A stretch of 64,000 nucleotides of DNA. It comes from Polytrichum commune (taxonomy: Eukaryota > Streptophyta > Polytrichopsida > Polytrichales > Polytrichaceae). Shown here piece after piece: positions 8,745 through 42,679 of this stretch. Location: positions 2,542,001 through 2,606,000 of the forward strand of contig OX485804.1 in assembly GCA_950295325.1 (NCBI GenBank). The letters are read 5' to 3'. The notes under the pieces were generated by a model. It worked only from the letters and a program-made list of their open reading frames with translations, searched no databases and was not told the origin of the DNA. The position numbers and the translations under genes are program-made. Every line of letters starts with the position of its first letter. Position 1 is the first letter of the stretch.

Positions 8745-8792
8745 GGGAGGGTTGTGCCTGCCAAGGTGGTTGTGCAATATCATGGCCACGCT
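8745..8792 (-). pseudogene. Truncated U2 snRNA (3' end only), unit A
   Basis: The minus strand matches the last ~48 nt of the intact U2 copies downstream (CATGATATTGCACAACCACC, then GGCACAACCCTCCC). At 8793 it switches abruptly to a dispersed repeat, so the 5' three quarters and the promoter are gone. A 20-nt scrap of another U2 end sits at 8422-8441. Confidence 0.8.
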
Positions 8793-9340
8793 TTCTGATT
8801 TAATTGGGATTAATAAGAATTAATCAGGATTAATCAAAATTTATTAGACTTATTGCATTCAATCACACTTAACTAGTTTAAATGCGTATGAAAACTTTGT
8901 GATAGTAGAAGGTATTAGCTATAAAATATTAAAATGAATCATTAATTTTAGTTCCATTTTAGAATTACAAAGACCCTTTCAATTGTAAGTCACAATAATT
9001 ATAACCTCAATGCTAATGAGGATTTCGTAATGTTTTTGACTTCCAAGTTAATTACATGTTTTATTGGCGGTTTCACTTTGAAAATGAAATTCGGTCAATT
9101 GCTTATTTACTCAATGGAAGTGAACATATATATTGGATTTGGGACCTTGAAAATGAAGTGCACTCAATATGGGATTTGTGGATAAGTGACCTTCAAGAAT
9201 ACAAGGACAATAGTTTTTTCAAAGTCAGGCACGCGGGCAACAGTTTTTGGTCGGGTCTAGAAAATTTGACGAGCGGTTGCCCCTGCCCGAATATTCCTCC
9301 CCAGAAAAGTTGGTGGGGGGGGACTTAACGTCCGCCCATG
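8793..9340. repeat. Dispersed repeat R1, copy 1
   Basis: One of four copies (others near 20400-20815, 23784-24345 and 33024-33440). Shared anchors are TTAATGAGGATTT-type text, CAATTGCTTATTTACT and GTGCACTCAATATGGGATTT. Not coding: stops are frequent and frames are not conserved. It replaces the missing part of the U2 copy at 8745-8792. Type unknown. Confidence 0.7.
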
Positions 9341-10219
9341 ATAAGGAGAGAGGGAATGTTGTAGACAAGCGCACCTCTCATTCATTCCAACATAGAAGCC
9401 ATCAAATAATATGCAGCCCAAAGGTTGTTTTTTATATTTGATTTGAGATCGGAATTAGCTTTAAAGACCCCTAATTAGTCTACTCAAAGTCATTTGAGAT
9501 GAATTGGCAACAAACCTATAGGACGCCGAGTTTTTATGTTGGATGGATGAGAGGTACGGTTGTATATGATCATCCCTCTCTCACAATGGCAAGGTCTGCT
9601 CTTGTCCCAAGTTACTTGCAACCTACTCCGAAAGTGTAAAATAATATTTTCACAATCTGAAGACAAAGATTGTCAACATTCAAGGAAACTGAAACTTACA
9701 TCCAGCTCCTGAGATCCAGACGACTCATTGCAAATTTTCAACACATAATACTTTTCAGCTAACCACATTCCAACACTAAATGTCTAACCAAGAATTATAC
9801 ATAGTCAGAGAATTTACGTGCAACTTTGATGAGGCAAATGCTGTTACATGAAAGTATAATAAGCACAGTCTTGTCCTTCAATGCAGATGTCGCTCATTCT
9901 TCTAGCTGAATGATTTAAACATATAAAATCAAAGACTAATTTAAAGGTCATACTAATTGCCACAAACAACCACAACTTCCTAGATTGCCTCTCATTTGTG
10001 AAGCTCAGAGAATTGGACCATCAATAAGGCGTAGGCTTGTGACAGTGCTAGGACAACAATTAGAGCAGGAGAATGGTGTAAGTTTATGCATTTGATGCTT
10101 TCTCAAAATTGCTGGGAAAAGGAGCCAGTGGTGAAAAAAGTCTCCATATTCATGTGTGCGTGTAAGTCCTGCATAACACCCACCAGATAAAAATATTTCA
10201 GAACACGCCCCTTAGAAGA

Positions 10220-10661
10220 CTACACTGTTTTTGGTATTTAGTGTGACATGCGTAATAATGTCGCTTATCCTATTTTGAGGCATATGCTAGGTTACACTGA
10301 TGACCAACAACTTCATTATTAGTGTCACTCCATGACACTTTGGCGTTTAAGTGCACTTACTAATATCTTGGCTTGAGTATGTTCAATATTGTTATGAGGT
10401 GTATGCCTATGATACATAATGGTCTACAAGTTGCCTAAAGTGTGCACGGATGACACTTGACATTAGTATGCTCAAGAATATCTTCCCCTTGCATATCAAA
10501 CCGCAAAACTATCATCTCAAGTATCCCAATTTGCTACACTAAATGGCATAATATCGTTACTCACGTTGACGAATAGTGTCATACTAGCAATTAACAGATG
10601 TGACGCTTTCAGACCTGTGTGCAAATAGTGTACGTGACACTAAATACCATAAACAGTGTAG
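10220..10661. mobile_element. MITE-like element, CTACACTGTTT termini (unit A copy)
   Basis: Inverted ends of about 31 bp: left CTACACTGTTTTTGGTATTT, right reverse complement CTACACTGTTTATGGTATTT, both running on into AGTGT. 442 bp, no coding capacity, no clear target duplication. The unit B copy (25218-25685) is 26 bp longer. Confidence 0.65.
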
Positions 10662-10937
10662 CACTCTGATTTGCAAGGTGGTAGAAACAGAGGAAATTTC
10701 CGTGTGTTTTTAAGGTTGGAATCAAACTAATGTCCAATATTAACCTACTCAGTTGCAAGTCGCTGATTTTCAAATTAGACTAAAGGGGACTTATTTGAGA
10801 CAAATTGTTCTTCCAATTATTGACGAAAAGATATGTCATAGAAGAGAAATGGAAATGAAGCAATATTCATTTATCAAATGCTTCAAGAACAAATGATGAG
10901 AGACCTTAGAACCCTCCACCTCGGGCATTTTTCCACC

Positions 10938-11011
10938 TCACGCTCCTGAGAAATCAAGGACAAAAGCATCGAGCATTGCAAGTTCTTCATTATCAAATGG
11001 TGGTGTTACAC
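10938..11011 (-). other. Possible alternative 3' exon of the AP2-like gene, copy A
   Basis: On the minus strand a good acceptor (TTTTTTTGCAG) precedes a short frame GVTPPFDNEELAMLDAFV ending at a TGA (23 whole codons if one base is supplied from upstream). The unit B equivalent (25959-26032) keeps the same length and frame (GVALPFDNEELAML). Its start resembles another reading of exon 6 (GVTPTYESMELD), so the gene may have duplicated terminal exons. Use of this exon is inference. Confidence 0.4.
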
Positions 11012-11399
11012 CTGCAAAAAAACCCACAAATGTAACCTTTTAAAACCACCAAAATACCCTCTGTGCCTCTCACTTTTCATACACAATGCTTCTATCCATG
11101 AATGTCTAAATTTCGAAATGTCATGCGGCACGTTGTTATTAGTTGAGAGTATTAGTAAATGCTATATGGCACCTTGAATTTTGTAGTTTTTGTCACGTGG
11201 GTTTCATAATCTACCTGCAATGCACAGTAATATTTGATGCAAAAGCATGAGTGGAGATGATTTAGCAATTCGGAATTTCAAGCATGGTCATTTTTAAGCG
11301 AGGAAAAAGATGCACCTTGCCTTGTGCATGTAATGTTAGAATCAAGTTGGGAACTATCATTTTAGAAATCACAATTCAAGGTCGAATTGGGGAGTGATA

Positions 11400-14176
11400 T
11401 TATAGTTCAATATTTTCTCCTATGCCACTCAAGAGATAACTCAGTGAAGAGGATTGTATATAATCTAAGAGTCGAGCCTTTATGACTTCAGGAGACAAGG
11501 ATGATTGCTCAGAATTTTCCACCTCTTGCATCAGGTGGCTCATGGACTTCACATTGAATGGAAGCTTGTATTGTTGTGTCAAGTTCCATGCTTTCATATG
11601 TTGGTGTAACTCCTGCACAAGAGAGGACACCAAGAGAAAATCAAAGGAAATCCAATTGATTAAAATATTGAACCTGGGATAAGACTAACAAAATAAAATT
11701 CGAACAAAAAATTAAACATTTAAACATTGAAAGTAATGAATAATAAAATAATAAAACAAAGGTAAAACCCAATATTTTTTTGAAAGGCAAACATAGTGTT
11801 CGACAAGGTAGGGTTTGAAAATGTTTGAGCGCAATAGAAGGCAACCATTAAAATCAAAAAGAAGAGAAAAAGTAAAGAGAAGATTTATGACTTAGAGAAT
11901 AGGATAGTAACAAATAAGATTAGAATAGAAAAAAAAATTGAAAAAAAATTGAAAAAAAAAATCTGAAAGGCGATCAGCGGTGTTTGAATAGGTAAAAGGG
12001 TTTGAAAAGGCTTGAATGCAATAGAAGGTAACAATCAAAATCAAAAAGAAGAGGGGAAAAAAATAGAGAGAAGAGCTATGACTTAGAGAATAGGATAGGA
12101 ACAAATATAATTAGAATAGAAATAAAATTAGAATCAAATTATTTCTTAAAGTAAGAATAAGAATAAGAATAAGAATAAAATGAAGGTAAATTTTCTTTAA
12201 AAAAAAAGGAAATGAATGGAGTTTAAAAAGGTTTGAATGCAATAGAAGGTAATCATCAAAATCAAAAGGAAGATATAAAACTTAGAAAGAAGAGCTACAA
12301 CTCAGAGAATAGGATAGTAACAAATAAAATGAACTTATTTAAAATTAGAACCTAAAGATAAAAAAGTAACAAAGAATAAAACGAAGGTAAAATTTTACAT
12401 TGATTTTTTTTCTTAAAAGGCAAGTAGAGGTGTTTGGAAAGGTTTGAATGCAAGAGAAGATAACCATCAAATCCAAAAAGAAGAGAGATTAGAAGAAGAG
12501 GAGAAGAGCTACAAATCAGAGAATACAATAGTAAATAATGTTGCCCAAATGTAAGTCCAATAAATTTTAAAGAAGAAGCAAGTGAAAAGATTTAAAATAA
12601 ATTTAAAATAAATAAATAAATAACCCAAAGGAAAATAGTAAATTTGGAAAAGGGGGAAAAACTACTAATAGAATATTCATACCCATACAGGCCGAGCTCT
12701 TGGAGGGCATCTGGAGTTGCCCTCTTCACCCGTGGTCCAAGTAAATCCTGGTCGTGACAGTTAAGTACTTCTATGTCCACACATCATAAGACTAATACTA
12801 ATAAGAATAAGTCCATGGCAGCTCGAAGTGCTTCCGAAGGGCTCCTCCTTCAACGTCTTAAGTGCCAGCTGGCCTGCAGCATCAACGGACAGGCGTCAGC
12901 ACACATCAACAGTCCTCACACCTGCCTCCATGTGCTCGCCTCGCAACATTCCCGGCATAACCAGGGAACTTTTCCTGTCAACATCGGCCGACAACGAAAA
13001 CAAAAAGGTCCCACCATTTCAAAAAAAAAAAACACATGTATATAACAGCCCTTGCCAAGCTCTCTTACTCTTTGGCTCTCCTTCAGGAACATGCACACCA
13101 TCTCGTACCTTGAGTTGCACATCTCTGTTCTTCATCACTGCACATACGCAACACTCGCCCCAACTCTGCCATTTCTTCCTCATGTTCAATGACCAACTTC
13201 TGATGTCTACGTCCCTTGGCCACAATCAGGCGCCCAACAAACTCGGCGAGCTACAGCGCAGAGAAAATTACTCCGGTTACTTCAACACATAACCATCCAG
13301 AAATGCACACAAGAAGGGAGTGACAAAACCCACTTCACTGGAAAGTCCTCAAATTGACAATCGAATCGGCAGGAGAACTCCTAATCTCCAAATTCTTGCA
13401 AAAAGTAAACACGTACATGTCTCGGATCAACTCCTGCCTGCGTTTGCCTAGGAGGATTTTGAGGATCCTGCACAAGTACTGCACCTCGAACGCCACAGGC
13501 AAAGCAAACAGAGCTGGATTCCGGTGCATCTGGTGGCATCGGTGGCTCCTCCGTCTTCCCGCGGTCGCGGTCGAGACGGTGGACCGAATCTGCAAGGAGG
13601 AATTCAACCTGCCAAAATGAGAGTGGAAAGACCGGGACTCGTCTCGTTCTGCTTGTCTTGTTCTATCAACGTGATGTTGTATGCAAATCTCCGGCGTCAA
13701 CATGAACCCGACATTGTTAACCCTTACAAAAAAAATTTACAAAGAAACCCTAAACCAGCCATTTCTTCAAGCATATCAACACTTCACCGTATATGGACCT
13801 CTGGTCTCCTCTGTACACCAAACGAAAAAAATAAAATAAGCACTGCCCTAATCGTACCTTCGGGGACCTCGGCGGCAGTGGACTTGTTTACTCCAGCCTC
13901 CTGCTGCAAACAATCTGTCTCTGACTCCAGCGCCTGCAGCACAACCTGTTTGAATTCCGCGCTACGAAATTCGTCAAGAAGGCCAGGAACATTGGGATGA
14001 TCGTCACCGAGAGCCTTGAAGCCAGCAACGTAGAGATCGATTTTCTCAACAATCCTCTTAGCCGAGTTCAAATCATCCACAGTCATCCACATCGTCTTCC
14101 TTCCAGGTAGTCGCATGTTCACAACAAATTTGTGGCCTCGGGGTATGATGCCCCTCCGATCCTCGTCTACGTCCAT
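11400..14176 (-). CDS. Six-exon gene, divergent AP2/ERF-like N-terminus plus coiled coil (copy A)
   Basis: Exons on the minus strand: 13858-14176, 13417-13589, 13109-13250, 12799-12873, 12683-12747 and 11400-11612. All introns are GT-AG and all phases agree, giving about 328 residues. Exon 1 (MDVDEDRRGI, then VNMRLPGRKTMWMTVDDL and AKRIVEKIDLYVAGFKALG) has the order of an AP2/ERF domain: RG, three short strands with a W, then an amphipathic helix. The match is weak and lacks the usual WLG and RAYD words. Exon 2 is proline-rich (PPMPPDAPESSS). Exon 3 is a charged coiled coil (HQKLVIEHEEEMAELGRV). A nuclear regulator is possible; that is inference. Copy B preserves the frame through exon 5. The start is the first ATG shared by both copies, with TATAAT about 270 bp upstream. 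Exons 1-3 are the surest. Exon 4 may instead end at the in-frame TAA near 12766. The exon 5 donor and exon 6 are less certain. Confidence 0.65.
11795..12560. repeat. Purine-rich intronic tandem repeat, about four units (copy A)
   Basis: Units begin near 11795, 11978, 12215 and 12428. Each carries GGTTTGAATGCAATAGAAGG-like text, AAATCAAAAAGAAGAG and TAGAGAATAGGATAG. Spacing is 183-237 bp. It fills the last intron of the AP2-like gene model, pyrimidine-rich in the sense orientation. Copy B has about three units. Confidence 0.8.
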
Positions 14177-14500
14177 TCTGGTATTCTCTCTGGGGCCGGA
14201 ATGCTAGAAATTTTTTCAAAACATGTACATCTGCTACGCAAGAAGGCGACGGAGACAAGAGAAAGGAAATTCATCGAGGAGGTTGGGGTTATGGGTAGGC
14301 GCTCCCCGAAGCGAAGATTGCTGCAGACATGTCTGCACAACTCCACACTCGGGTGTCTGTTGCCTGCACTCGCATCACTTCCCACCGACAAGTTCACACG
14401 ACGTAGGATTCTAAGGGTCCCAGCCAAGTAAAACTCGACACGTCGGATTTCGATTATACAAGGATAATCCCCACCGCTTTTGCTGAGCAAGAGGTCGCTG
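14177..14500 (-). promoter_or_regulatory. Conserved 5' region of the AP2-like gene, copy A
   Basis: The 320 bp upstream of the first ATG match 29103-29440 closely and are richer in G and C than their surroundings. A TATAAT lies at about 14450-14456. An overlapping long frame here shifts between copies, so I read this as leader and promoter, not coding. Confidence 0.45.
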
Positions 14501-14519
14501 TGACTCGTTCGTAAGGTAA

Positions 14520-16350
14520 ACGAGGACGAGTTAATTAATTAGGTGAAGCAAGGTGAGCGTGAAGGGTGGTGCGGAAATTAAGTTGAAGGAAGTAGGCCTA
14601 ATTCGGTTACTCCTCTTGAAGGGATACCTATATTTGAATGGTATCAATATGCTTAAGTTGTGGATCTAAGGATGGACACCCAAAACATACAAGTTGTGTT
14701 AAAGAGACATTAGACTATGTGCTCAATATTATAGGGTTCTAGGATCAATAGTCAATATAACTGGGCGGACCTATATGATTATTTAATAAGAGAGAAAAGT
14801 TTGAACACTTTGATAATGAATAAGAACCTCAAATGAGCTCTAAAAATTATGGGGGTAATTATGGGTGTGATTTGAATATGCTAGTCATCTTGTACCCATT
14901 GTGACTTTTCTAAATTTAAAGTGTCCATTTAAGACCCACTTACTCTAGGTCTAGTACGTCAACAACACCTTCTTTCATTTTCACTGGAACCAACAATAAT
15001 CCGTAAATGGACAAGCCCAATTTTGGGTCAAATGGCCACATTTGAGTCTCCCCTTGACCAATGTTTATATGTCTTTTCCTTGGTGTTTGATTTGGAGTTC
15101 AAGTCTTGGGGGGGGGGTCACTAGCGAAAATCATAGAAACAACATGCCATAAAAAAAATAGGGTCTAATATATACATTTTAAATAAAATTTGCAAAAAAA
15201 ACATACATATAATACACGGGATTTTAAAATAATGAAACATGTTTGCATGTAAAATACCATGGCATATAATGGCCTCTTTTATCTAGTCAATACATGTAAA
15301 ATAGCGTGGAAACAATTACTAGGGGTAGCAAGTCTAAGGTAGGGTCTGTACTAGTTGATGAAAAGAGGTAAATTTTTTTGCTGAAAAATCTTGGATGGAT
15401 GACTTTGCAAGCTAGCTAGCTTGAACAATACTGAACCAACATATCCAATGTGGAGTTAATGTTCTCTACCTACGTGCCAGGAGGGAAAATTTCAACACGT
15501 TGTTTGAATTGCAATCTTTTTTCTAATTTCTTTGGCAGTATAAGTAAAATAGGGTTTTTTAGATGATTCCCTAAAAATTTATAATTACTGATAAGGTGTA
15601 TCAAAATACAAGCATTTATTTTGGAAAATACCATCCTTATAATCTTTTCTACAAGGTAAATAGCCCCCTGATAAATAAATCTTGAGTGCATGTGTATGCA
15701 TTAATATAAGAGGGAGTGACCCCCCCCCCCCAAGGTTCATACATATTGAAATCCAATCATATTGAATCAACCATTTAACCATACATATTGAACCATTTAA
15801 CCATTTAACCATATTGAATATTTAACCATACATATTGAAATCCAATCATCTAATTAATCAATCTCATAATTCTAGGTTAATCCAAACCATATTTTTGTCA
15901 AGTGGAGTGTACTTAGTGCAAGGACAATGATGTAGTCATGTTATATTGATAATTATGTGGTGTAAATGGTGGACAATCGAGGAGGAGGGACCATAAGTGA
16001 GGGACTTGGGGTTGCACTCAATGATAGATCATCAGAATTATAACATGATTGAGTGCTTTTGATCCCCTATTTGAGGTCTGCTATTAATATGGAAAAATTA
16101 AGTAGTTCATAATCCTTGTGCAACTTCTATGATGTGATAGAAGATCATTATATCTTTTAAGTGTTGTAAATTTTATCCTACAAATTTTCAAAGAAAAAAA
16201 TGAGACATTTCGATTCAAACATTCATGCAAGTTTCAACTAGGAAACATGTGGAGGGGGTTGGATGCATGTTTTAAATTTTAAATGATATTTTATATCATA
16301 TCATTATATAAATTCTTGATCATGTGAACACCAATGAATAGGGTGAACCG
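14520..16350. other. AT-rich duplicated spacer, no gene seen
   Basis: Collinear with 29460-31710. It contains mononucleotide G and C runs (about 15108 and 15721) that differ in length between copies, and at 14590-14720 a diverged copy of the text at 640-760 (CCTAATTCGGTTACT). No conserved reading frame. Confidence 0.6.
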
Positions 16351-16353
16351 ACC

Positions 16354-16681
16354 ACTACACTAAATATCCCTATTAGTGTGGGTGGAATATTGGTGTGGAA
16401 TTAACGTGGGCCCAAGACCTAAAGTCTTCCCCCAAGCCTTCAATAAGACTTCCCACCAACACATTCTATATTAGTTACAAGACAAAAGTGGCAAAAAATA
16501 GAATAATCATCCACACTAATTTTCTTGGAAAAAAATTACTATGGTTCACACTAATTCTCAACCAGAAATTGAGTGTGTGATGAAAGTTCATGTGGCCCAC
16601 ATTAATTCTCATGATTATAAAACTTAGTGTGGGCTCAAGGAAATTACTATGGCCCGCATGAATAGGATTATTTAGTGTAGT
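16354..16681. mobile_element. MITE-like element, ACTACACTAAATA termini (unit A copy)
   Basis: Left end ACTACACTAAATATCCCTAT, right end reverse complement ACTACACTAAATAATCCTAT: about 28 bp of imperfect inverted repeat. Internal AGTGTGGGC and GCCCACACTAAT-type words repeat several times. The B copy is 31716-32044. Related words near 18510-19160 and 62950-63000 suggest a family. Confidence 0.65.
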
Positions 16682-18364
16682 TACAGTTGCATTGGTTGAG
16701 TTTGAGAAATTACCGCTTCAAATTCGAGACTTCAAAAATTGCCAATCCATTTAGCGGAATTTACAGAACATACGGAATAGTCCACAGTTTAAGAAAGGAA
16801 AACCAAGAGATGTCAACATGTAACCGGTCGGCCTTCGAAAGCACTAGGATCTGGACTGATTATGCCCCAAAATCTCCAGAAACACTGGCAGACACCATAG
16901 TAACATGCATGCTTATATATAACAAGTCATTATGCCAGTGCTCCAAAGTTGAGGGGGGTGAAGTTAAGGTACCATTCCCTCATGCAATTGTGGGCGACAC
17001 TTTTCACCTCCAACTCAACTTAGAACATGTGGTGGTGGTGCTGCTACTGCAGCTTGGGTGAATAATAATTAAGGTTCGATAAATTCAATTGCAGGGCTAC
17101 AACACCCCCGGCCCTGCATTGTCCATCACTCAGAGTCAAGGGCCATAAAAGGCGGTGGTTCTAGCTAGACCTGGTGCAAATCCACTAAGTTAGTGCCTGC
17201 AGTCAAAACGGATCGAGGGAGCACAACTAACTTACTTCTTAATTATAACTTAACCCTAAACGATGTGTGGAAAAGACATCCATGTAAAGCCCACGAGGTC
17301 AGACAGGTTTAATCTTGAAAGTGATCTTCTCACAACCCATAAATGGCAGCATGCAGGAGTCTGCTGATGAAAACTCCACCACCGTAAGTACTTACACCAG
17401 GTGGAATATTAATGCTTACTCACTCACTTCTTGGAGCAGCCGAAAGTCGGTCGGAGTTCTCGGCAGAAAATTGTTTGACTCGCAGATGCTGCATTTACAG
17501 CCAAGCAGATGCATGGTAATGTGTGTGTGTGAGTATATATATATAGACACACCTTTGTGTCATCTATCCTTATCCAGTAAAAGGGAAAAAGAAAGAAAAG
17601 AAACACCGGTGTTCATGCACCGACATCACTGTGAGCCTGTTCTCCTTGGTTTAATCATGGTTGACCATTAAACAAGGTCCAATAAAATTTCGTGATGTGG
17701 CCCTAATAGCAAACCAAATTTCTCTTAACATGAGAGAGATGAAGACATATTAACTTGTGAGGCAGATGGTGCTGAAACAATCACTTAAAGCGGGCTAGGC
17801 AAAGATTATTGGTTAAACAAGGATTGAATTGTTCTTGTTAGCAATTGACAAGGGATCCAACGCACCAAAACATGTCTTGTTTGAATTCCAAGTGAAAAAG
17901 TTACAAGGGTTCAAAAGTTTTATTGGTAGATGCCCCCAAGAGGTGCACTCTTCATAGGAAACCTAAATGACGTGCATGGGTGGCTATGAAATTAAACCCC
18001 CTGTATACGAGAAGCCTATAGAGAAAAACAAGTGTATACATACTAACGGTGGGTTAGAAAATGGACTCAGATATTTATTTATACTAAGCTTTACAATGTG
18101 ATGGGATAAATGCCTCCACTACATATACAAAATATAAATCTCAAATTAAATAAGCATTTATTACATATGAAATCCGCTTTCACCACCCAAGAGAAAATCA
18201 TTGAACATTTTTCCATCCATAGCGTGTAACTCAATGTTTGCATCAAGCAAACAAAGACAAGAGAACAATAACTTAGCCACAATCCATAAGAAAAACCGAT
18301 GAGTGCTCCAAGAACCTCCAATTTGTACAAACCTAGAACCCACATGCAAACCCCTAAACATAGT

Positions 18365-19262
18365 AATTATGAAACGTCACATTCACATGTGACATTTTTT
18401 TTCTCCAAGGCCAACTCAGTTTCTACTAGTCTTGTGGAGTGCACTTGAACTTTGGAAAAAGATGTAGTTGGCAATAACTTGTGAAGTTGGAAAAAGCTAC
18501 ATTGTTTTGTCTAATTAGTGTGGATGGGAAATACATGTGGGCTGGAAATTAGTGTGGCCCACATTAGTTTTTGAGTACTTGCCTTGGTTAAGATCATTTT
18601 GGATGAAATTTGTACTACCATCCCAAACACTTCATCCATATATGTTAGGGTTCTTTGTGGTGTGCCATCGGACAAAAATTAGGTTTGAGCACAAACATGA
18701 TTTGAGCACAAATTGTAATGTCCTACTTTTCTTTGTTGCCAAGCTTAGCGGAGGAGGAGCCACTTTACACCAACTTAAGTAAGTAGGTATCTATGTTAGC
18801 GTTGTACTTTTGGACTTCAACTCATCTTTATTGTTAGGTTGCATTCGTAATTTTGGTCTTTGATAGATACGCATGTCAATTATTGGGGTGTCCGTTGGGA
18901 TGCCTTAAGTTACTTGATTTTGGTTATCAACATTGCTCATCTTTGATTTTCCAACATTTCCTTGCAAAATTTGTACATGTTCAATCAAGGATAGTTGCAA
19001 AATACATTTGGATGAGAATTTGTATTTTGTATCAAAATATGTAAACAAAAAAGCCCACGCTAATTTCTCACACTAGATATTACGGTGGGCCACTTCAAAT
19101 TATTAAAAAAAAAATGTGGGTAATTCAAAATTAGTGTGGATTACACTAATTAGACAAATACACTGAACCTCCAATGGCCAATTCAAGCCGGCCTTCCTTG
19201 TATTGGAGAAAACGGCATATGTGACATTTTTATGAGCCAAGTGACGTTGTCTCGAATACCAT
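18365..19262. mobile_element. About 0.9-kb insertion with TTTGTCTAATTAGTGT inverted repeats
   Basis: The diverged duplicate at 51530-52080 reads through this point (51955-51970), while unit A has about 900 extra bases. Inside, TTTGTCTAATTAGTGT at about 18508 recurs inverted near 19145-19163. The outer ends show only a weak inverted match (AACGTCAC). Boundaries are approximate and no target duplication was found. Confidence 0.45.
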
Positions 19263-19634
19263 GTTCCAACAAGAATGGACAATGTAGTCATTGAGGACTA
19301 TTTCCATATGACAACAACGAAAGAAAACTTGAATTGGATGAAACTAACACGTCTATTGTCAACTTTTCTCTATACCCTACGGCCCCCTTTTGTACATCTA
19401 CCTCAACATTCCAAATACCATAGGTTGATAGCCGGTCTGATACAATTGCGTCGAGTTAGTTAAAGTGCCAAAAGTTGGATCAACACTTCCAAACAATACA
19501 TTTGAAAATCTCAACACTTTTCCTATGACTTTCTCACAATTCCAATTGGTTCACATAACCCCAATCAACATGTTTGAGGTGTCCACATCACACATTGTAT
19601 TGTTTGTACGTTTAAGTATATAACTCCTCCCCAT

Positions 19635-19669
19635 GGCCAGGGATTCGTGGCACTCAAGTAAAGTCATCC
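19635..19669. mobile_element. Single end of the GGCCRGGGATTCGTGG MITE family
   Basis: Matches the terminal repeat of the complete element at 49866-50113 with few changes (GGCCAGGGATTCGTGGCACT and on to GTCATCC). No opposite end was found before unit B starts. Unit B (34097) lacks it, and the A/B match stops exactly here, so the element sits at a duplication breakpoint. Confidence 0.7.
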
Positions 19670-20400
19670 GGTAACCAAAATCGGATGAGTCCATCAAGCA
19701 GCTCAGATGGAGCTTACTTTAGTGAAACGCCTCCGAGTTGGCATGTAAGACCTATTTTCTCCCTCATAGCTATTGTGAATTACTAGCTATTTTGTAAATA
19801 TCAATTAGTTGGCAAGGGGCAATGATGTGGCCTTGGATGCTCTAAGCCTATTTTCTAACCTCCCATGAGTTGTTTCCAAGGCCATTATGTGGCTTTGAAT
19901 TCCACATGGTTATTTTGATAAATATTACAAGATATCAATGTGTGCAATATATAATTATGACGTGTTGTCATAGACTCTTTTTTTGTTTGTTCACAATTCA
20001 TTTATTTTGCACGGGTGTGATTGCTCAAATATTTGTAATATGTCAAAATAATATATATCACCTTATGGTAAATTGGTGAACCAAAAAATCAATTCAATAT
20101 AATAATAATAATAACATGAAATTTATTTGAAAATAATTAGTATACACTATGTGATTTTAAGATAATACAATATATGATGACGATAAAATATTACAATAAT
20201 TCATATAGACTATAGTTAGAAACTTATGATAATATGAGTATACCCCATTCATAACATTGTCTCACAAGTCTAATTCCAAATAACATACCATTTATTTATA
20301 CCTCATAATACATTACCTAAAATTAAAATTGATTTTTATATAATAATTGTTTATATTTTATATTATATCTTCATTGTTTTATTTTGGTTATCTCATGAAC
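19670..20400. other. AT-rich unique spacer, no gene seen
   Basis: Very AT-rich with runs of AATAAT and TATATT. No conserved frame or duplicate elsewhere in the window was recognised. Confidence 0.5.
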
Positions 20401-20815
20401 ACTTGCACTAATCTATCATTAGAATGGAAAAGATAATTTTAAATAATAAGTCACAAAATTATAATTTCAATATTAATGAGGATTTTTTAATGTTTCTAAC
20501 CTCCAAATTAATTACGTGCTTCATTGATGGTTTCACTTGCGAAATGAAATCCCAATCAATTGCTTATTTACTAATTGGAAGTGCACATATATATATATTG
20601 GATTTTAGACCTTGAAGGTGAAGTGCACTCAATATGGGATTTGTAGTCAAGTGGCCTTCAAAAATGCAAGGGCAATGTTTTTTTCGAAGTTGGGCGGGAT
20701 GGGCAACATATTTCGGTCGGGTTCAAAAAAACATTTAGAGGGTTTCCCCAACCCGGATTTGTCACCCCGAAATTTTGTGAGGGAGTATTTAATGTCCACC
20801 CATATTAAGAACACT
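20400..20815. repeat. Dispersed repeat R1, copy 2
   Basis: Matches R1 at 8793-9340, including the GGGCAACAT...CGGTCGGGT and CACCCATATTAAG parts. It ends where unit B starts. Confidence 0.7.
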
Positions 20816-22538
20816 TTATACGCATTCATTTTGTTTCTGCTGCGAAGTCCGAGCTTGTTTGTGATTTGGGTGCAGTAGAAGCTTCATATACTGACATGGG
20901 CATAAAAACTTCATCAGGTCACTCTTTGGAGGATCAGACTGCCTTTGGAAGTTTAGCTTTTAAGTGTCACTCCTAACTGGTGCTCAATCTTTTTGAATTA
21001 AACATTCAGATTGAATACCTCCCCCCGCCCCGGCCCTGCCCCCGTGGTCTTCTTTGCTTTGCTCATTTAAGGTAGACGTGCCTAATTCGGTTACTTATCT
21101 TAATCAAATACCTATACTTGAGTGGTATTTGGGTAAGCCTGCATACAAGAACGGACACCAAAAGACACATGTTGAAAAAAGATCGGACTACGAGCTCAAA
21201 ATTTTTAATCATTTTAGGTTCATGTATGATGTAGGAGATGTAAGATGGTCGGAAAAAGTAACCATTCAAGACATGTCTACCTTACAGTACGAACATGATC
21301 TCCTCACCTTTTGCTAATTTGAAGGTTGAATTTTCTATTTTAATCATTTCTATCGAGTGCGTTATTCTTACATATCCTCTAATTTCAAATGAAGCCGAAG
21401 TTGCAAGCTTTACCTCCAAAATACAATATGTACACCATTAGTTTGAAAAGGGGCGCAAGGGGTGGGGGGACTGATTGAGACCCACTTTAAATTACACTAG
21501 AGCATGAGTTGAGAGCTTTGAACTTGCAACTTTATAGTAGTTTGGTACGTGGAGTTGACAAGCTTTGATTCAAAGTTCAAATTATAAATATGAGCTTCGC
21601 CAATCTTCAAGCTCTCATCAATTTGAACAAGTGTAAAGTGATCATGCTTAAAGTGTGATATCAAGGGGTAGAATGATACTAACACTAAGAGAATTGCGTG
21701 GTCATGCCACTAGCAATTTATGTGTAATTGGGATTGACTTTTAAAAAAATTAAAAATAGTTATTGCAAGAATTGGTAAATCGTCATGGTGGAAATGGGAA
21801 GTGTCTTCTCCAACATTTATGTGGGAACCATGCAATATTTAATGGAGATATTATTGATTGAGGCAACTGAAGGCTTTTCTTGAAGGTAGGTTATGGTGGT
21901 GACCATCTTCTTTAGTAGGCATGCGCTTGGTTGAAATTGCCGCTTGAGGAATATAAGAGCGTCGTTGCTGGCTTGCACTCTGATGTATGTGCCCTGGAAT
22001 GATGAATTATGTGAGAATTGTGTTGCAGTGCATAATTGTTTCTTAATTCATGCATTTGCGACATGAAAGTCGGTCAATTAAGGAGGCGTTGTTCTTATGA
22101 GAAGGTAGAGATTGTGCCATCTATCAAGTTCTATTCAGAACCTAATATTCAAGTCAGAGGAATCACAACTCAACTTCAATAAAAATTTGCAATATGTCTT
22201 GATGTTGGCTGAATAGAGGTTGGTGAAGTATTGACTACATTATACAAGATTTTAGTGTGCTTTGTGCCAGTCTACCCCTACATATATATACCTTGGACTT
22301 TCTGGAATGTAAGATTGGGAAGCTCATTAGCTTGTCGGCAACATTGTGAAAGGAATAAGCACACAACAAGTGTGACAGTGACGAAGAAACCGGATCAAGA
22401 GGATTAAAGGAGCCAAACCTTAGCTTGATATATGGCATGAAGAGAAAGAGGAATGGAGGTGTTTGCTATCCTGAAAATTCTCATCATTCATCACTCAATT
22501 TCCTGTGACGTTCTACACCATGTAAGCAGCTATACTCA

Positions 22539-22932
22539 CTACACTAAAATTTGTATTTAGTGTCACCAATTCTATCTGTCTTGCTCAAGACTAATTGTAA
22601 ACCGCCTGTGTAGTGTAACCAACTTTAACTATAACCTAACATCATTTGTCATTCCTTGTAAAAACATTGGGCATTCTAGATGTACAATGTTGCAATTACT
22701 ATCACTTACCAAGTGGATTTTCATCCAAATTTCAATCATCCATGACAACATTTCATTACATAAATGCTGGTATGCAAAATATCCCAAACTTAGTTCCAAT
22801 AATTGACATTTGGATGAACTCAAGTAAGTTGGGATGACACCACTTGTAAACTTATTCATGAAAAGTATCATCAGACAAGTTACCATAGTGACATAAAATA
22901 CCATATGACACTAAATGCAACATTTAGTGTCC
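22539..22932. mobile_element. MITE-like element, CTACACTAAA termini (unit B copy)
   Basis: Orthologue of 7515-7911, with the same ends and site and small internal indels. Confidence 0.55.
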
Positions 22933-23737
22933 TACTCTCATACGAACAGGTGGATGCCACAGCCAAAGGACCCAATTATGTTGCCTCCACAAATTCATAC
23001 TCACCTCTTCATTAACAGGCGTTCCAGCCACATCCACTCGAACAATCTACTACTATTTGAATCAAGAGAAGAGTACATCTTCAATTAGGTTACCTCTTTA
23101 CCCATGCACTTTGCCTTGGGACAAATCCATATCACAAAAACTGAGGACTTTGTTTATTCATCCATATAGCAGCCGTAACCTAATTGCACATATAAGCTTT
23201 GCACTGATATTTACTGTTAGGTTGCCTTTGCGAATAGGTCGTCTCTTCACCCATGCAAATTTACCTTTGGTCAAAATCAGATAACAAAAGCTTATCACTT
23301 CGTCTATCAATTTGTATGGCAACAACGTTAAAACTACATATCCTCGTTGAATTAGCGTGGAATTACCTAATCGCACATATCAGTATCCAATTTTGGTTTG
23401 TTTGGGTCCCAAAAAGGGAGGGTTGTCCCTGCCCACTTGTAAACTATTTCATGAAAAGTGTCATCAGACAAGTTACCATAGTGACATAAAATACCATATG
23501 ACACTGAATACAATATTTAGTGTCCTACTCTCATGCGAATAGGTGGATGCCCCAACCAAAGAACCCAATGATGCTCCCTCGACAAATTCATACTCCTCTC
23601 TTCATTCACAGGCGTTCCAGCCATGCCCATCTCGAACAATCTACTAATATTTGAGTCAAGGGAAGAGTACATCCTCTCCTCTTGATTCACATGCGGATTG
23701 AAGTTGTCCAATTTTGCTTTGTTTGGGTCCCCGAAAG

Positions 23738-23783
23738 GGGAGGGTTGTGCCTGCCAAGGTGGTTGTGCAATTTCATGGCCACG
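23738..23783 (-). pseudogene. Truncated U2 snRNA (3' end only), unit B
   Basis: Orthologue of 8745-8792 with the same truncation point against R1. The upstream text TTTGCTTTGTTTGGGTCCCC is closer to the intact U2 flanks than the A copy is. Confidence 0.8.
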
Positions 23784-24345
23784 CTTTCTGATTTAATTGG
23801 GATTAATAAGAATTAATCAGGATTAATCAAAATTTATTAGACTTATTGCATTCAATCACACTTAACTAGTTTAAATGCGTATGAAAACTTTGTGATAGTA
23901 GAAGGTATTAGCTATAAAATATTAAAATGAATCATTAATTTTAGTTCCATTTTAGAATGACAAAGACCCTTTCAATTGTAAGTCACAATAATTATAACCT
24001 CAATGCTAATGAGGATTTCGTAATATTTTTGACTTCCAAGTTAATTACATGTTTTATTGGCGGTTTCACTTTGAAAATGAAATTCGGTCAATTGCTTATT
24101 TACTCAATGGAAGTGAACATATATATTGGATTTGGGACCTTGAAAATGAAGTGCACTCAATATGGGATTTGTGGATAACTGACCTTCAAGAATACAAGGA
24201 CAATAGTTATTTCGAAGTCGGGCACGCGGGCAACATTTTTTGGTCGGGTCTAGAAAATATGACGGGTGGCTGCCCTTGCCCGAATATTCCTCCCCCGAAA
24301 AGTTGGTGGGGGGGGGGACTTAACGTCCGCCCATGATAAGGAGAG
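23784..24345. repeat. Dispersed repeat R1, copy 3
   Basis: Orthologue of copy 1 (8793-9340), with a longer G run near 24306. Confidence 0.7.
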
Positions 24346-25217
24346 AGGGAATGTTGTAGACAAGCGCACTTCTCATTCATCCCAACATAGAAGCCATCAA
24401 ATAATATGCAGCCCAAAGGTTGCTTTCTATATTTGATTTGAGATCGGAATTAGCTTTAAAGACCCCTAATTAGTCTACTCAAGGTCGTTTTGAAATGAAT
24501 TGGCAACAAACCTATAGGACGCCGAGTTTTTATGTTGGATGGATGAGAGGTACGGTTGTGTATGATTATCCCTCTCTCACAATGGCAAGGTCTGCTCTTG
24601 TCCCAAGTTACTTGCAAGCTACTCCGAACGTGTAAAATAAAAATTTCACAATCTGAAGACATAGATTGTCAACATTCAAGGAAACTGAAACTTACATCCA
24701 GCTCCTGAGATCCAGACGACCCATTGCAAATTTTCAACACATAATACTTTTCAGTTGACCACATTCCAGCACTAAATGTCTAACCAAGATTTATACATAG
24801 TCAGAGAATTAACGTGCAACTTTGATGAGGCAAATGCTGTTACATGGAAGTATAATAAGCACAATCTTGTCCTTCAATGCAGATGTCACTCATTCTTCTA
24901 GCTGAATGATTCAAACATATAAATTCAAAGACTAATTTAAAGGTCATACTAATTGCCGCAAACAACCCACAACTTCCTAGATTGCCTCTCATTTGTGAAG
25001 CTCAGAGAAGTGGACCATCAGTAAGGCGTAGGCTTGTGACAGTGCTAGGACAACAATTAAGAGCAGGAGAATGGTGTAAGTTTATGCATTTGATGCTTTC
25101 TCAAAATTGCTGGGAAAAGGAGCCAGTGGTGAAAAAAGTCTCCATATTCATGTGTGCGTGTAAGTCCTGCATAACACCCACCAGATCAAAATATTTCAGA
25201 TCACGCCCCTTAGAAGA

Positions 25218-25685
25218 CTACACTGTTTTTGGTATTTAGTGTCACATGTGTAATAATGTCGCTTATCCTATTTTGAGGCGTATGCTAGGTTACACTGATG
25301 ACCAACAACTTCATTATTCGTTTCACCTCATGACACTTTGGCGTTTAAGTGCACTTACTAATATCTTGGCATGAGTATGTTCAATATTGTTATGAGGTGT
25401 ATGTTTATGATACACAATGGTCTACAAGTTGCCTAAAGTGTGCACAGATGACACTTGACATCAGTATGCTCAATAATATCTTCCCCTTGCATACCAAATC
25501 GCAAAACTATCATCTCAAGTATCCCAATTTGCTACACTAAATGCCATAATATGTATATTATTATTTTTAACTTTAGAAAGTCACTCATGCTGACGAATAG
25601 TATCATATTGGCAATTAGCAGATGTGACACTTTCAGACCTGTGTGCAAATAGTGTACATGACACTAAATACCATAAACAGTGTAG
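25218..25685. mobile_element. MITE-like element, CTACACTGTTT termini (unit B copy)
   Basis: Same ends as 10220-10661. It has about 26 extra bases near 25550-25580, an AT-rich stretch. Confidence 0.65.
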
Positions 25686-25958
25686 CACTCTGATTTGCAA
25701 GGTGGTAAAAACAGAGGAAATTTCCGTGTGCTTTTAAGGTTGGAATCAAACTAATGTCCAGTATTAACCTACTCAGTTGCAAATCGCTGATTTTCAATTA
25801 GACTCAAGGGGACTTATTTGAGACAAATCATTCTTCCAATTACTAACGAAAAGATGTCATAGAAGAGAAATGGAAATGAAGCAATATTCAATTATCAAAT
25901 GCTTCAGGAACAAAGGATGAGAGACCTTAGAGCCCTCCACCTCGGGCATTTTTCTACC

Positions 25959-26032
25959 TCACGCTCCTGGGAAATCAAGGACAAAAGCATCGAGCATTGC
26001 AAGTTCTTCATTATCAAATGGTAGTGCTACAC
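25959..26032 (-). other. Possible alternative 3' exon of the AP2-like gene, copy B
   Basis: Equivalent of 10938-11011, with the same acceptor (TTTTTTTGCAG), 74-bp length and stop. Encodes GVALPFDNEELAMLDAFV with only a few substitutions from copy A. Confidence 0.4.
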
Positions 26033-26489
26033 CTGCAAAAAAACCCCACAAATGTAACCTTTTAAAGCCACCAAAATACTCTCTGTGCCTCTCACTTTTC
26101 ATACACAATGCTTCTATCCATGAATGCCTAAATTTGGAAGTATCATACAGCACGTTGTTATTAGTTCAGAGTATTAGTAAATACTATATGACACCTTGAA
26201 TTTTTTTATTTTTTGTCACGTGGGTTTCATAAACTGCCTGCAATGCACAATAACACTAGTTGCAAAAGCATGAGTGGAGATGAATTAGCTATTCGGAATT
26301 TCCAGCATGGTCATTTTTAAGTGAGGAAAAAGGATGGACCTTGCCCTGTGCATTTAATGTTAGAATCAAGTTGGGAATTGTTATTTTAGAAATCACAATA
26401 CAAGGTCTAATTTTGGAGTGATATTACATGACATCATTTTCTCCCATGCCACTCAAGAGATATCTGAGTGAAGAGGATTGTATTGAATC

Positions 26490-29102
26490 TCAAAGTCGAG
26501 CCTCTATGACTTTGGGAGACAAGGAAGATTGCTCATATTTTTCCACCTCTTGCATCCGATGGCTCATGGAGTTCACATTCAATGAAAGCTTGTATGGATG
26601 TGTCAAAATTTGTGCTTCCATATGTTGGTGTAACTCCTGCACAAGAGAGGACACCAATAGAAAAATCAAAGGAAATCCAATTGATTAAAATATTAAACTT
26701 GGAATAAGCTAACGAAATCAAATTAGAAAAAAATAAACATTTAAATATTGAATAATATTGAATAATATGATAACATAATAATAAAACAAAGGTTAAAATG
26801 TGGAGGGAAAAAAATGTTAAAAAAGGAAAACACAGTGTTTGAAAAGGTAAAAGAGTTTGATAAGGTTTGCATGCAATAGAATGTAACCATCAAATTCAAA
26901 AAGAAGAGAAGAAGTACAGAGAAGAGCTACGACTTAGAGAATAGGATAGAAGCAAATAAGAATTAGAGTATAAATAAAATTAGAACCAAAAAAATAAAAT
27001 TAAAAGAATAAAAAGAAGGTAAAAAAAATATAAACAAATTGAAGGCAATCAGTGGTGTTTGAAAAAGTAAAAGGGTTTGAGAAGGTTTGAATGCAATAGA
27101 AGGTAATCATCAAAATCAAATGGAAGATATAAAATATAGAGAGAATAGCTACAACTCAGAGAATAGGATAGTAACCAATAAAATTCGAACCAAAAAACAA
27201 AAAATTAAAGGTAAAAAAGTACATATCAAAATAAAATGAATAAAATGCAGGTAAATAATGGTAAAACAAAGGTTTTAAAAGGCAATCTGCGGTATTTGAA
27301 AAGGTTTGAGTGCAATAGGAGGTAACCATCAAATCCAAAAAGAAAAGAAAAAGACAGAAGAGAAGAGCTACGAATTAGAGAATACGGTAGTAAATAATGT
27401 TTCCCAAAGGTAAGTCCAATCAATTTAAGAGGAAGCAAGTCAAAAGATTAAAAAGAAGAAGTAAAGAAAATTATTGAATGTGCAAATTGGGGAACACTAC
27501 CAATGGAATATTCATACCCATACACACTTTGTGGCCGATATTGGACGAGCTCTTGGAGGGCATCTGGAGTTGCCCTCTTTGTCCGTGGTCCAAGTAAATC
27601 CTGTTGTGAGAGTTGGCAACACACGGCGAGGTTAAGTACTTCTACTGTATGTCCAGACCTCATAAGACTAATACTAATATGAATAATAAGTCCATGGCAG
27701 CTCCAAGTGCTTCCGTCGGGCTCCTCCTTCAACGTCTTAAGTGCCAGCTGGCCTGCAAGGTCAACGGGCAGGCGTCAGCACACATCAGCATTCCTCACAC
27801 CTGCCTCCACGTGCTCGCCTCGGAACACTCCCGGCGCTCGGGGTGCAGCACCTATCGGGGTCCGATATAGTATAACCGATATCATGGATTATATCAGAAA
27901 CAAAAAGTTCCCGCGATTTGAAAAAAAAAAAGGCACCAGTATATAAAGGCCCTTGCCAAGCTCTCTTACTCTTTGGCTCTCCTTCAGAAACCTGCACACC
28001 ATCTCGTACCTTGAGTTGCACATCTCTGTTCTTCATCCTTGCACATAGGCAACAATCGCCTCAACATCGCCAGTTTTTCCACATGGTTACGCCTCAACGC
28101 TGCCATTTCTTCCTCATATTTACGTTTCTCGGCCATAATCAGGCACTCAATAGCCTCGGTGAGCTACAACACAGAGACAATTACACCGGTTACTTCAACA
28201 CATAACCATCCAGAAATGCACACAAGAAGGGAGTGACAAAACCCACTTTACTGGAAAGTCCTCAAATTGACAATCCAATCAGCAGGGGAACTCCTAATCT
28301 CCAAATTCTTGCTAAAAGTAAACACATACATGTCTCAGATCAACTCTTGCCTGCGTTTGCCTAGGAGGATTTCGAGGATCCTGCACAAGTACTGCACCTC
28401 GACTGCCACAGGCAGAGCGAACAGAGCTGGATTCCGGTGCGTCTGGTGGCATCGGTGGCTCCTCCGTCTTCCCGCGGTCGAGACGGTGGACCGAATCTGC
28501 AAGGAGGAATTCAACCTGCCAAAATGAGAGTGGAAAGACCGGGACTCGTCTCGTTCTGTTTGTCTTGTTCTATCAAAGCGATGTTGTATGCAAATTTCCG
28601 GCGTCGACATGAACCCGACATTGTTAACCCTTACAAAAAAAAATTACAAAAAAACCCTAAACCAGCCATTTCTTCAAGCATATCAACACTTAACCGTGTA
28701 AGGACCTCTGGTCTCCTCTGGTCTCCTCTGTACACCAAACCCAAAAAAAAGAAAAGAAAAAAAAAGCATTGCCCCAATCGTACCTTTGGGGACCTCGGCG
28801 GCAGTGGACTGGTTTACTCCAGCCTCCTGCTGCAAACAATCTGTCTCTGACTCCAGCGCCTGCAGCACAACCTGTTTGAATTCCTCGCTACGAAATTCGA
28901 CAAGAAGGCCAGGAACATCGGGATGATCGTCACCGAGAGCCTTGAAGGCAGCAACGTAGAGATCGATAGTCTCAACAATCCTCTTAGCCAAGTTCAAATC
29001 ATCCACAGTCATCCATATCGTCTTCCTTCCAGGTAGTCGCATGTTCACAACAACTTTGCGGCCTCGGCATATGATGCCCCTCCAATCCTCGTCTACGTCC
29101 AT
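26490..29102 (-). CDS. Six-exon gene, divergent AP2/ERF-like N-terminus plus coiled coil (copy B, shorter C-terminus)
   Basis: Exons on the minus strand: 28784-29102, 28330-28496, 28010-28163, 27675-27752, 27518-27600 and 26490-26636, about 315 residues. Compared with copy A, exons 1-5 differ in length by 0, -6, +12, +3 and +18 bp, all multiples of three, and every splice site is kept. That pattern argues for selection on the reading frame. Exon 1 reads MDVDEDWRGI, then VNMRLPGRKTIWMTVDDL. Exon 3 is a longer coiled coil (MAEKRKYEEEMAALRRNHVE). Exon 6 has a TGA where copy A has TTA one codon on, so the protein ends at KVIEARL, 22 residues earlier. Function is unknown; the AP2-like reading is tentative. 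The intron between exons 5 and 6 holds the tandem repeat at 26830-27330. Confidence 0.6.
26830..27330. repeat. Purine-rich intronic tandem repeat, about three units (copy B)
   Basis: Units start near 26830, 27052 and 27292. Text is shared with 11795-12560 (GGTTTGAATGCAATAGAAGG, AGAGAATAGGATAG). One unit fewer than copy A. Confidence 0.8.
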
Positions 29103-29440
29103 TTCGGTATTCTCTCTGGGGCCGGAATGCTAGAATTTTTCCCAAGGGATGTGCATCTGCTACGCAAGAAGGCGACGGAGACGAGAGAAAGGAAGTTCAT
29201 CGAAGAGGTTGGGGTTGTGGGTAGGCGCTCGCCGAAGCGAATATTGCTGCAGACATGTCTGCTCTTGTGTCTGCACATCTCCACACTCGGGTGTCTGCTG
29301 CCTGCATTCGCAGCACTTCCCACCGACAAGTTCACACGTAAGATTCTAAGGGTCCCAGCCAAGTAAAACTCGACACGTCGGATGTCGATTATACAAGGAT
29401 AATCCCGTCCGCTTTTGCTGAGCAAGAGGTCGCTGTGACT
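29103..29440 (-). promoter_or_regulatory. Conserved 5' region of the AP2-like gene, copy B
   Basis: Equivalent of 14177-14500. It has a 12-bp insertion (near 29265) and a TATAAT at about 29390. Confidence 0.45.
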
Positions 29441-30867
29441 CGTTCGCAAGGTAAACGAGGGCGAGTTAATTAATTAGGTGAAGGAAGGTGAGCGTGAAGG
29501 GTGGTGCGGAAATTAAGTTGAGGGAAGTAGGCCTAATTCGGTTACTCCTCTTGAAGGGATACCTATATTTGAGTGGTGTCAATATGCTTAAGTTGTGGAT
29601 CTAAGGATGGACACCCAAACCATACAGGTTGTGTTAAAGAGACATTAGACTATGTGCTCATTACTATAGGGTTCTAGAATCAATAGTCAATATAACTGGG
29701 CGGACCTATATGATTACGTAATAAGAGAGAAAAGCTTGAGCACTTTGATAATGAATAAGAACCTCAAATGAGCTCTAAAAATTATGGGGGAAATTATGGG
29801 TGTGATTTGGATTTGCTAGTCATCTTGTACCCATTGTGACTTTTCTAAATGTAAAGTGTCCATTTAAGACCCACTTACTCTAGGTCTAGTACGTCAACAA
29901 CACCTTCTTTCATTTTCACTGGCACCAACAATAATCCGTAAATGCACAAGCCCAATTTTGGGTCAAATGGTCACATTTGAGTCTCCCCTTGACCAATGTT
30001 TATATGTCTTTTCCTTGGTGTTTGATTTGGAGTTCAAGTCTTGGGGGGGGGGGGGTCACTAGCAAAAATCATAGAAACAACATGCCATAAAAAAAATAGG
30101 GTCTAATATATACATTGTAAATAAAATTTGCAAAAAAACATACATATAATACATGGGATGTAAATATAGTGAAACATGTTTGCATGTAAAATACCATCAC
30201 ATATGATGGCCTCTTTTATCTAGTCAGTACAGGTAAAATAACGTGGAAACAATTACTAGGGGTAGCAGGTATAGGATAGGATTTGTACTAGTGGATGAAA
30301 ACACGTAATTTTTTGTTGAAAAATCTTGGATGGATGACTTTGCAAGCTGGCTAGCTTGAACAATACTGAACCAACGTATCCAATGTGGATTTAATGTTCT
30401 CTACCTACGTGCCAGGAGGGAAATTTTCAATACATTGTTTGAATTGCAATCTTCTTTCTAATTTCTTTGGCAGTATAAGTAAAATAGGGTGTTTTTAGAT
30501 AATTCCCTAAAAATATTATAATTACTGATAGGGTGTATTAAAATACAAGCATTTATTTTGAAAAATACCATCCTTATAATCTTTTCTACGAGGTAAATAG
30601 CCCCCTCATAAATGAGTCTTTAGTGCATGTGTATGCATTAATACAAGAGGGAGTGACGCCCCGAGGTTGAAGTCCAAGATTTAACCATACATATTGAAAA
30701 CCAATCATCCAATTAATCAATCTCATAATTCGAGGTTAATCCAAACCATGTTTTTGTCAAGTGGAGTCTACTTAGTGCAAGGACAACGATGTAGTCATGT
30801 TATATTGATAATTATGTGGTGTAAATGGTGGACAATTTGGGAGGAGGGACCATAAGTGAGGGACTTG

Positions 30868-31365
30868 CCCGGGTACGCAACTCCCGTATTATATGGTCTT
30901 GATTATAATCACTTATAATGCGTTTTAGTCCAATATTGAGTGATACAATTTGTTTTAATGTAGGAAACCCTTGTAGCCCATCTAACAAGGAATCCAAAAA
31001 TGTAATTATATATAGGAAATGAATATTTTTTGAAGCATACAATTGCATTAAAAACCTAATTATATGATTTAAAAAAAATACAAGTACCATAGGTCAAACT
31101 ACCCAACTTTTTGGACTTTTTAATAAAATTTTAACATTGTGAATGAATTATAATTTTAATGGGAGGCAACTCTTCGTGGCTTATAATTTTAATGGGAGGC
31201 TTAATAAATATGCAACCCAACTTTGTTTTCATCTCATTTTATTTAATTTGGTCTTCACCCAACTTTTTGATCATTTTAATTTGATATAATTTTTACAAAA
31301 GCCGTCCTCTAAGCCGTTTTAAGTACGATGCCCCCTGCGTATAATATGGGAGTTGCGTACCCGGG
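30868..31365. mobile_element. 498-bp hAT-type MITE with 8-bp target duplication
   Basis: Flanked by GGGACTTG at 30860-30867 and 31366-31373. Unit A has a single GGGACTTG at the same place (about 16000). The ends are inverted repeats of 25 bp with one mismatch (CCCGGGTACGCAACTCCC, then G or A, then TATTAT). No transposase frame. An 8-bp duplication is the hallmark of the hAT superfamily, though these ends lack the usual CAG start. It inserted after units A and B separated. Confidence 0.88.
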
Positions 31366-42678: not shown

Positions 42679-42679
42679 A

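Follow-up and report, generated by a model that had tools for sequence, protein, structure and literature searches.

A small moss gene family that joins a probably AP2-derived domain to a probable coiled coil and bears signs of diversifying selection

The window analysed here, a stretch of 64,000 nucleotides from the moss Polytrichum commune (C2:2542001-2606000; the 408-Mb genome has seven large contigs of 42-78 Mb), harbours two related four-exon genes on the minus strand, copy A at 14176-11509 with 245 residues and copy B at 29102-26533 with 247 residues. In agreement with a moss, the four best PDB matches of a PsaL gene are the PsaL chains of 6l35, 7xqp, 8htu and 7ksq, which are Physcomitrium structures, and a number of seven large chromosomes would suit Polytrichaceae (n=7). 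Both lie within a tandem duplication, for which a self-blastn of the window places the unit with A at 8352-17164 and its counterpart with B at 23345-32532. The unit recurs in pieces with 90-92% identity overall: 8352-12320 corresponds to 23345-27393 (90.2%), 12998-15725 to 27898-30662 (91.7%) and 16001-17164 to 31366-32532 (91.3%). The duplicated pair described in the first-pass annotation of this DNA is therefore real as a tandem segmental duplication, but it is more than a pair, as 15 or more places belonging to the same family were found. An open reading frame with a match to NIF (NLI-interacting-factor-like phosphatase; Pfam E 5.5e-7) is located in the same array at 4107-4742 on the plus strand. 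In its neighbourhood, the self-comparison shows 954-3296 to be repeated at 36543-38890 and 954-1658 at 21232-21938, and no counterpart of 3296-6930, the part surrounding this frame, was present among the self-comparison matches listed for the window. Dispersed direct repeats of about 250-360 bp with 78-86% identity occupy 40338-49783, some of them containing similar open reading frames (IKLIRxxTTLDLSQK) at 40504, 47308 and 49664.

The gene model was built by comparison among paralogues and assigns one exon each to an AP2-like domain, a linker, a probable coiled coil and a short tail. Exon 1 of copy A (13858..14176, like all following exons on the minus strand) contains the ATG and the AP2-derived domain and ends in phase 1 at CCCGAAG/GTACGA (the slash marks the splice junction). 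It is open in all five close copies (A, B, L005, L006 and L007, all on C2), and its phase is common to the genes on C6 and, as judged by eye, to L010 on C1. Exon 2 (13417..13589) encodes the linker between the acceptor CTTGCAG/AT and an end in phase 0. It includes a shared DS...DAPESS-type motif, read by eye, and displays about 70% DNA identity across the acceptor to exon 2 of L011 and L012 on C6 and of L009 on C1. Exon 3 (13109..13250), which encodes the probable coiled-coil helix, ends in phase 1 at CTCAAG/GTACGA, and the last exon (11509..11612), entered by a phase 1 acceptor and open in five of five close copies, encodes GVTPTYESMELDTTIQASIQCEVHEPPDARGGKF followed by the stop. In copy B, exon 1 (28784..29102) encodes the AP2-derived domain, exon 2 (28330..28496) is 6 bp shorter and exon 3 (28010..28163) 12 bp longer than in A, and the last exon with the stop is found at 26533..26636. 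The phases 1-0-1 are also those of the C6 genes, completely in L011 and L012 and over exons 1-3 in L013. The exon 2 acceptor TTGCAG/AT is also found in L011 and L012 and, by eye, in L010, as is phase 1 both at the donor of exon 3 and at the acceptor of the last exon, and the paralogues keeping these splice features have exon-1 proteins matching that of A by only 35-45%.

Originally, five exons with length differences of 0, 6, 12, 3 and 18 bp between the two copies had been proposed, with every splice site being kept. The differences in exons 1-3 (0, 6 and 12 bp) and the conservation of the GT-AG sites in the corrected model agree with this, but exons 4 and 5 (A 12683..12873, minus strand) were rejected as coding sequence and are treated as part of intron 3. 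This is because 'exon 4' contains a 1-bp deletion in L006 and L007, that is in two of the five copies, because the intron between 'exons 4 and 5' would measure about 45-51 bp in A and 68-74 bp in B (with a donor assumed after the 3-bp indel), and because, with both left out, exon 3 and the last exon still connect in phase. Stops seen in A and L005, near or after the assumed donor, are no proof by themselves. To the eye, the C6 genes contain a short stretch similar to part of this region, which blastn did not report, and use of the region as an alternative exon would still be conceivable. The proposed end of the gene at 11400 had to be given up as well, since it fits a frame (ELHQHMK) which exon 3 does not offer. 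As exon 3 ends in phase 1, the last exon reads G-VTPTY...GKF and then stop, and the same phase is found for the last exon in the C6 genes and, by eye, in L010. An exon 2 acceptor at CATTTTGGCAG/GTTGAA was rejected because of an in-frame stop after the phase-1 exon 1, with CTTGCAG/AT being common (as TTGCAG/AT) to the C6 and C1 genes. Within intron 3, a partly poly-T stretch of 30 bp (13003-13032) is 93% identical to intron 3 of L011 despite far-diverged exons.

Searches with four exon-1 proteins revealed at least 15 places in the genome, comprising 13 genes or gene remnants and two fragments, and all these counts are lower bounds. C2 contains A, B, L005, L006, L007, L015 and L014, the latter with a frameshift in exon 1, which matches in two frames. 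L008, L009 and L010 are located on C1 and L011, L012 and L013 on C6, so that the gene plan is repeated in diverged paralogues on two other chromosomes; the two short fragments are found at C3:69.6 kb and C2:66.83 Mb. In L008, exons 2 and 3 are missing, and sequence of the last exon directly follows exon 1 and part of intron 1. Together with the local clusters this suggests that the family duplicates locally and also loses members. L015 (C2:2.207 Mb) appears by eye to contain two exon-2-like segments and a long charged open reading frame (ERRWIEQEKRRVEQEKRR...). The last exon of L013 (C6:41.43 Mb) was not found within the 5 kb of sequence taken. From about 3120 (minus-strand orientation), exon 3 is followed there by large tandem repeats that return about every 429 bp, with similar open reading frames at 3120, 3549, 3977 and 4406. 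Searches of open-licence PMC papers and passages of PMC12454661 yielded no account of a family of this kind.

All five close copies are open from the ATG to the end of the model and keep their splice sites, with exon lengths of 319-325, 167-173, 142-175 and 103 bp (the stop being read out for A and B). This bears out the initial view of a multi-exon protein gene that stays open. Of the gap blocks among these five copies, four of four in exons are triplets, as compared with 16 of 55 in introns and upstream sequence (one-sided Fisher p 0.011), which also agrees with the non-triplet indels reported earlier for the introns. On C6, all four exons are open in L011 and L012, as are exons 1-3 in L013, and exon 3 measures 202, 280 and 178 bp in L011, L012 and L013, respectively.

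The YRG element and the WLG/RAYD element are motifs of AP2 domains. In an alignment of nine of the 13 family domains, xG(I/V) is present in 9/9 and W in 7/9, and LG and RAYD are absent. A candidate-limited run of the Pfam AP2 model over the genome yielded no family locus among the 121 matches listed (E up to 10), and single members gave no AP2 hit, hence none above the gathering score of PF00847, so that an AP2 HMM of this kind does not confirm the AP2/ERF-like domain that had been suggested. Profile-profile comparison, however, supports it. In hhalign, the profile of these nine domains reached a score of 35.4 (probability 88) when compared with 19 AP2 domains from this genome (a canonical set of 19 of the 121 matches listed) and a score of 56.0 (probability 96) when five divergent AP2s were added, which had been chosen by eye from nine weak loci (L035, L038, L040, L041 and L043, leaving out L036, L037, L039 and L042). 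The maximum among 300 column permutations, performed with this nine-member profile only, was 18.3 and 17.5, reversed profiles gave 12.1 and 10.7, and control profiles of the same genome gave 8.2 for WRKY (10 of 34 matches, several of the pieces being partial) and 8.7 for B3 (10 of 114 matches). In a ranking with 12 of the 13 members, L014 being left out for its frameshift, the family HMM placed 18 of 24 AP2 sequences above all 2000 shuffles and the wider AP2 HMM placed 11 of the 12 members above all shuffles; with the canonical AP2 HMM only two of 12 members beat the best shuffle. On the strength of these comparisons, the N-terminal domain is considered to be descended from AP2, well beyond the canonical family.

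An AlphaFold2 model calculated from two window sequences comprises strands at 9-13, 16-21 and 29-33 and a helix at 36-56. The strand-strand-strand-helix order is that of AP2 domains, but the confidence is low (mean pLDDT 56.6), too low for the model to decide for or against the AP2 assignment. Foldseek gave no match at E 0.001 or better, with AP2 chains of TEM1 at E 1.6. In VIA-align a PH domain scored best (Z 5.6), followed among AP2 chains by 6sy0 (4.4), 7et4 (4.1) and 1gcc (4.0). The latter aligns over 47 residues (8-54 on 147-197) with 2.3 A rmsd and 23% identity, several PH and FERM domains ranking higher.

Downstream of this domain, the proline-rich linker mentioned in the first-pass annotation is evident in the translations as a Pro/Ser-rich linker. 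For the coiled coil the picture is mixed, as a heptad-rich helix is clear in the C6 paralogues but weak in A and B. By eye, the exon-3 proteins of L011, L012 and L013 exhibit about 4, 8 and 3 EVERxKx-type heptads. In the best register of a simple count, the hydrophobic share at a/d positions is 0.52 in L012 as compared with 0.15 elsewhere, and the difference is modest in A (0.46 vs 0.35) and B (0.47 vs 0.39).

Between A and B, 64.0 amino-acid differences and 7.0 synonymous differences were counted. Omega values were obtained with a purpose-written codon model and tested against an omega of 1. For the whole coding sequence of the five C2 copies omega is 2.70 (2dlnL 22.3), a test value that none of 200 neutral simulations (omega 1) reached, the largest being 8.5. 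A dN/dS ratio near 1 would count against a selected protein, and the 2.7 of C2 is not near 1. The site model M2a is favoured over M1a (2dlnL 55.7), with about 35% of the sites in a class of omega 7.7. Omega for the individual exons is 1.67, 4.52, 5.63 and 1.46 (2dlnL 2.6, 5.7, 13.0 and 0.4). As exon 1 and the last exon are not significant alone, the C2 signal stems from linker and helix (exons 2 and 3). For C6, where the last exon of L013 was left out of the tests, omega is 2.54 (2dlnL 10.2). There, the signal comes from exon 1 with the AP2-derived domain (omega 4.78, 2dlnL 9.4 for this exon alone), exons 2 and 3 having values of 1.10 and 1.05, and the gap-free comparison of exon 1 between L011 and L012 yields 19 non-synonymous (Nd) and 0 synonymous (Sd) differences. 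The C1 members, compared over exon 1 only, show no amino-acid excess (omega 0.95) and are neutral-like rather than constrained. These values are best explained by diversifying selection in C2 and C6, two of the three clusters compared. The reading-frame selection originally proposed is hence right with regard to intactness, but the substitutions point to diversifying rather than purifying selection.

Several controls bear on this amino-acid excess. The pooled pN of 0.104 in C2 exceeds a pS of 0.061, and introns 1 and 2 and the upstream sequence differ at 0.061, 0.037 and 0.058. The ratio is 1.70 in the true frame, as compared with 0.55 and 0.81 when the same sequence is read out of frame; for short stretches of non-coding DNA with an arbitrary choice of frame, the values range from 0.24 to 3.28. 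Between A and L005, exon 3 differs by 19.7% (28/142), as compared with 4.8% and 3.8% in the adjoining introns. L005 and L006, whose upstream sites lie at about 2.534 and 2.502 Mb of C2, differ by 0.4% in the upstream flank, 13.2% in exon 1 and 4.9% in intron 1. The nearly identical flank beside the diverged exon may reflect either gene conversion of the flank or a strong divergence of the exon. However, a comparison of {A, L005} with {B, L006, L007} gives 19-21% difference for part of intron 3 (12640-12400). In the 3′ flank the copies differ by 11.5-14.3%, A and L005 also by 14.0%. This suggests that the neutral rate is uneven, and a faster change of the last exon than of the sequence around it is not evident. 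On C6, intron 1 of L011 and L012 is with 8.0% even more different than exon 1 (6.1%). As the best tree differs between exons in C2, gene conversion is likely; it can inflate site models, and the results site by site are thus unsafe.

The reading that we favour, with a probability of about 60%, is that A and B are functional members of a fast-evolving family of DNA-binding proteins dimerising through a coiled coil. The genes would be transcribed, and their products, of about 245-300 residues, would consist of the AP2-derived domain, the linker, a heptad helix that varies in length and a short tail, which is likewise variable. They are predicted to be nuclear proteins, which would dimerise via the helix and bind DNA via an AP2-type sheet. 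The family would grow by local tandem duplication and recombination and lose members by decay, with diversifying selection probably acting on the AP2-derived domain in C6 and on linker and helix in C2. Pairing or target specificity may in this manner have changed repeatedly. What drives the change is hinted at by its diversifying character, which would fit an evolutionary arms race or a shifting specificity.

The domain was also compared position by position with the DNA contacts of AtERF1. Positions 152, 156, 162 and 172 (AtERF1 numbering) are mostly kept, and positions 147, 150, 154 and 170 vary within C2. Tryptophan 154 is replaced by H, R or D in C2 and by Gly in C6 and C1, position 160 (Glu in AtERF1) is N, D or H, and R150 is lost in four of five C2 members and the three C1 members. 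These replacements fit with a domain that has lost DNA binding and acts within a recognition system as a decoy or as a module for protein interaction, an explanation which is possible but doubtful, as the equivalents of R152 and K156 are present in 11/11 cluster members and that of W172 in 9/11. The variable sites of C2 are not concentrated at the AP2 DNA contacts (4/10 contacts and 17/41 other positions).

Rather unlikely, though worth considering, is that the AP2 domain has come to serve recognition and evolves rapidly in this role, in the manner of a genetic-conflict or self/non-self system. If so, sheet as well as length and pairing surface of the coiled coil would vary in such a way that new dimers and new targets keep arising, which would be unlike a hormone or stress regulator. 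KRAB zinc fingers and PRDM9 are rapidly evolving DNA-binding families driven by conflict. The moss family resembles them in local duplication, intact paralogues and above-neutral amino-acid change in binding modules, but is not homologous, and no evidence of transposon, meiotic or other targets of a conflict was seen for it.

That A and B are young, dying duplicates under relaxed constraint, being intact merely through recency, appears improbable. The broken members L014 and L008, the two short fragments and the omega of 0.95 in C1 would suit such an origin. Yet neutral drift would result in an omega near 1 and not in the 2.7 which no simulation reached, and all five close C2 copies as well as exons 1-3 of the three C6 genes are open despite some exons having diverged by 10-20%. 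Quite improbable, too, are ordinary divergent AP2/ERF transcription-factor paralogues under purifying selection, an idea close to that of the first-pass annotation. Intact frames and splice sites, the AP2 profile match and the mostly kept equivalents of R152, K156, R162 and W172 are in agreement with it, but omega values of 2.7 and 2.5 in two clusters, a non-synonymous rate above that of introns 1 and 2, the absence of RAYD and the missing match to Pfam AP2 are not, and purifying selection is largely ruled out for C2 and C6. An amino-acid excess produced as an artefact by gene conversion and by the alignment of the repeat-like, indel-containing exon 3 is very unlikely, for although the exon trees disagree and the L005/L006 flank contrasts with exon 1, conversion should carry synonymous and amino-acid changes together without raising their ratio, and the C6 excess lies in a gap-free exon 1.

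Among known systems, the closest comparison is that with AP2/ERF proteins (PF00847; GCC-box domain of AtERF1, 1gcc). Shared with them are the order G(V/I)xxR...K...xxxRxPG...W, a predicted succession of three strands and a helix (in a weak model), the mostly kept contact equivalents and a profile score of 35-56. Unlike them, the moss family is missed by the Pfam model, has WLG reduced to W (or Y), lacks RAYD and Trp154 and combines four exons and a helix with rapid amino-acid change. Three other AP2 genes in this genome are divergent as well, namely L040 (C1:54.15 Mb), L038 (C4:1.19 Mb) and L043 (C3:52.1 Mb), and are similar in being below the Pfam cut-off (22.9-27.1 bits, cut-off 33.3). In contrast to the family, they give at least weak matches to the Pfam model and have retained WxGTY and RAYD/RACD, and the 1.1-1.2 kb of sequence taken for them showed no arrangement of four exons with a helix. 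In L038 and L040, an N(F/H)PDS loop is followed, by eye, by FIKAQA/FIRSQA. Clusters of AP2 matches are located at C4:36.78-37.16 Mb and C4:24.37-24.51 Mb, with L031 and L035, the two that were read out, being of an unusual type (YKGVRWRPERKxPWVxEIK...MWIGN). L036 (C1:40.40 Mb) and L037 (C6:40.68 Mb) each have an open frame of 319 aa in which two AP2-like domains score weakly (24.7-38.8 bits, cut-off 33.3).

Transcription-factor domains of plants are usually strongly conserved. The family described here, with amino-acid change outpacing silent change in two clusters, would clearly exemplify how diversifying evolution can seize on a DNA-binding domain in plants, and its set of paralogues would be suited to testing how the choice of targets or partners shifts. 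It also illustrates that the standard Pfam model overlooks some relatives of AP2, which means that the numbers of AP2 genes counted in mosses may be too low.
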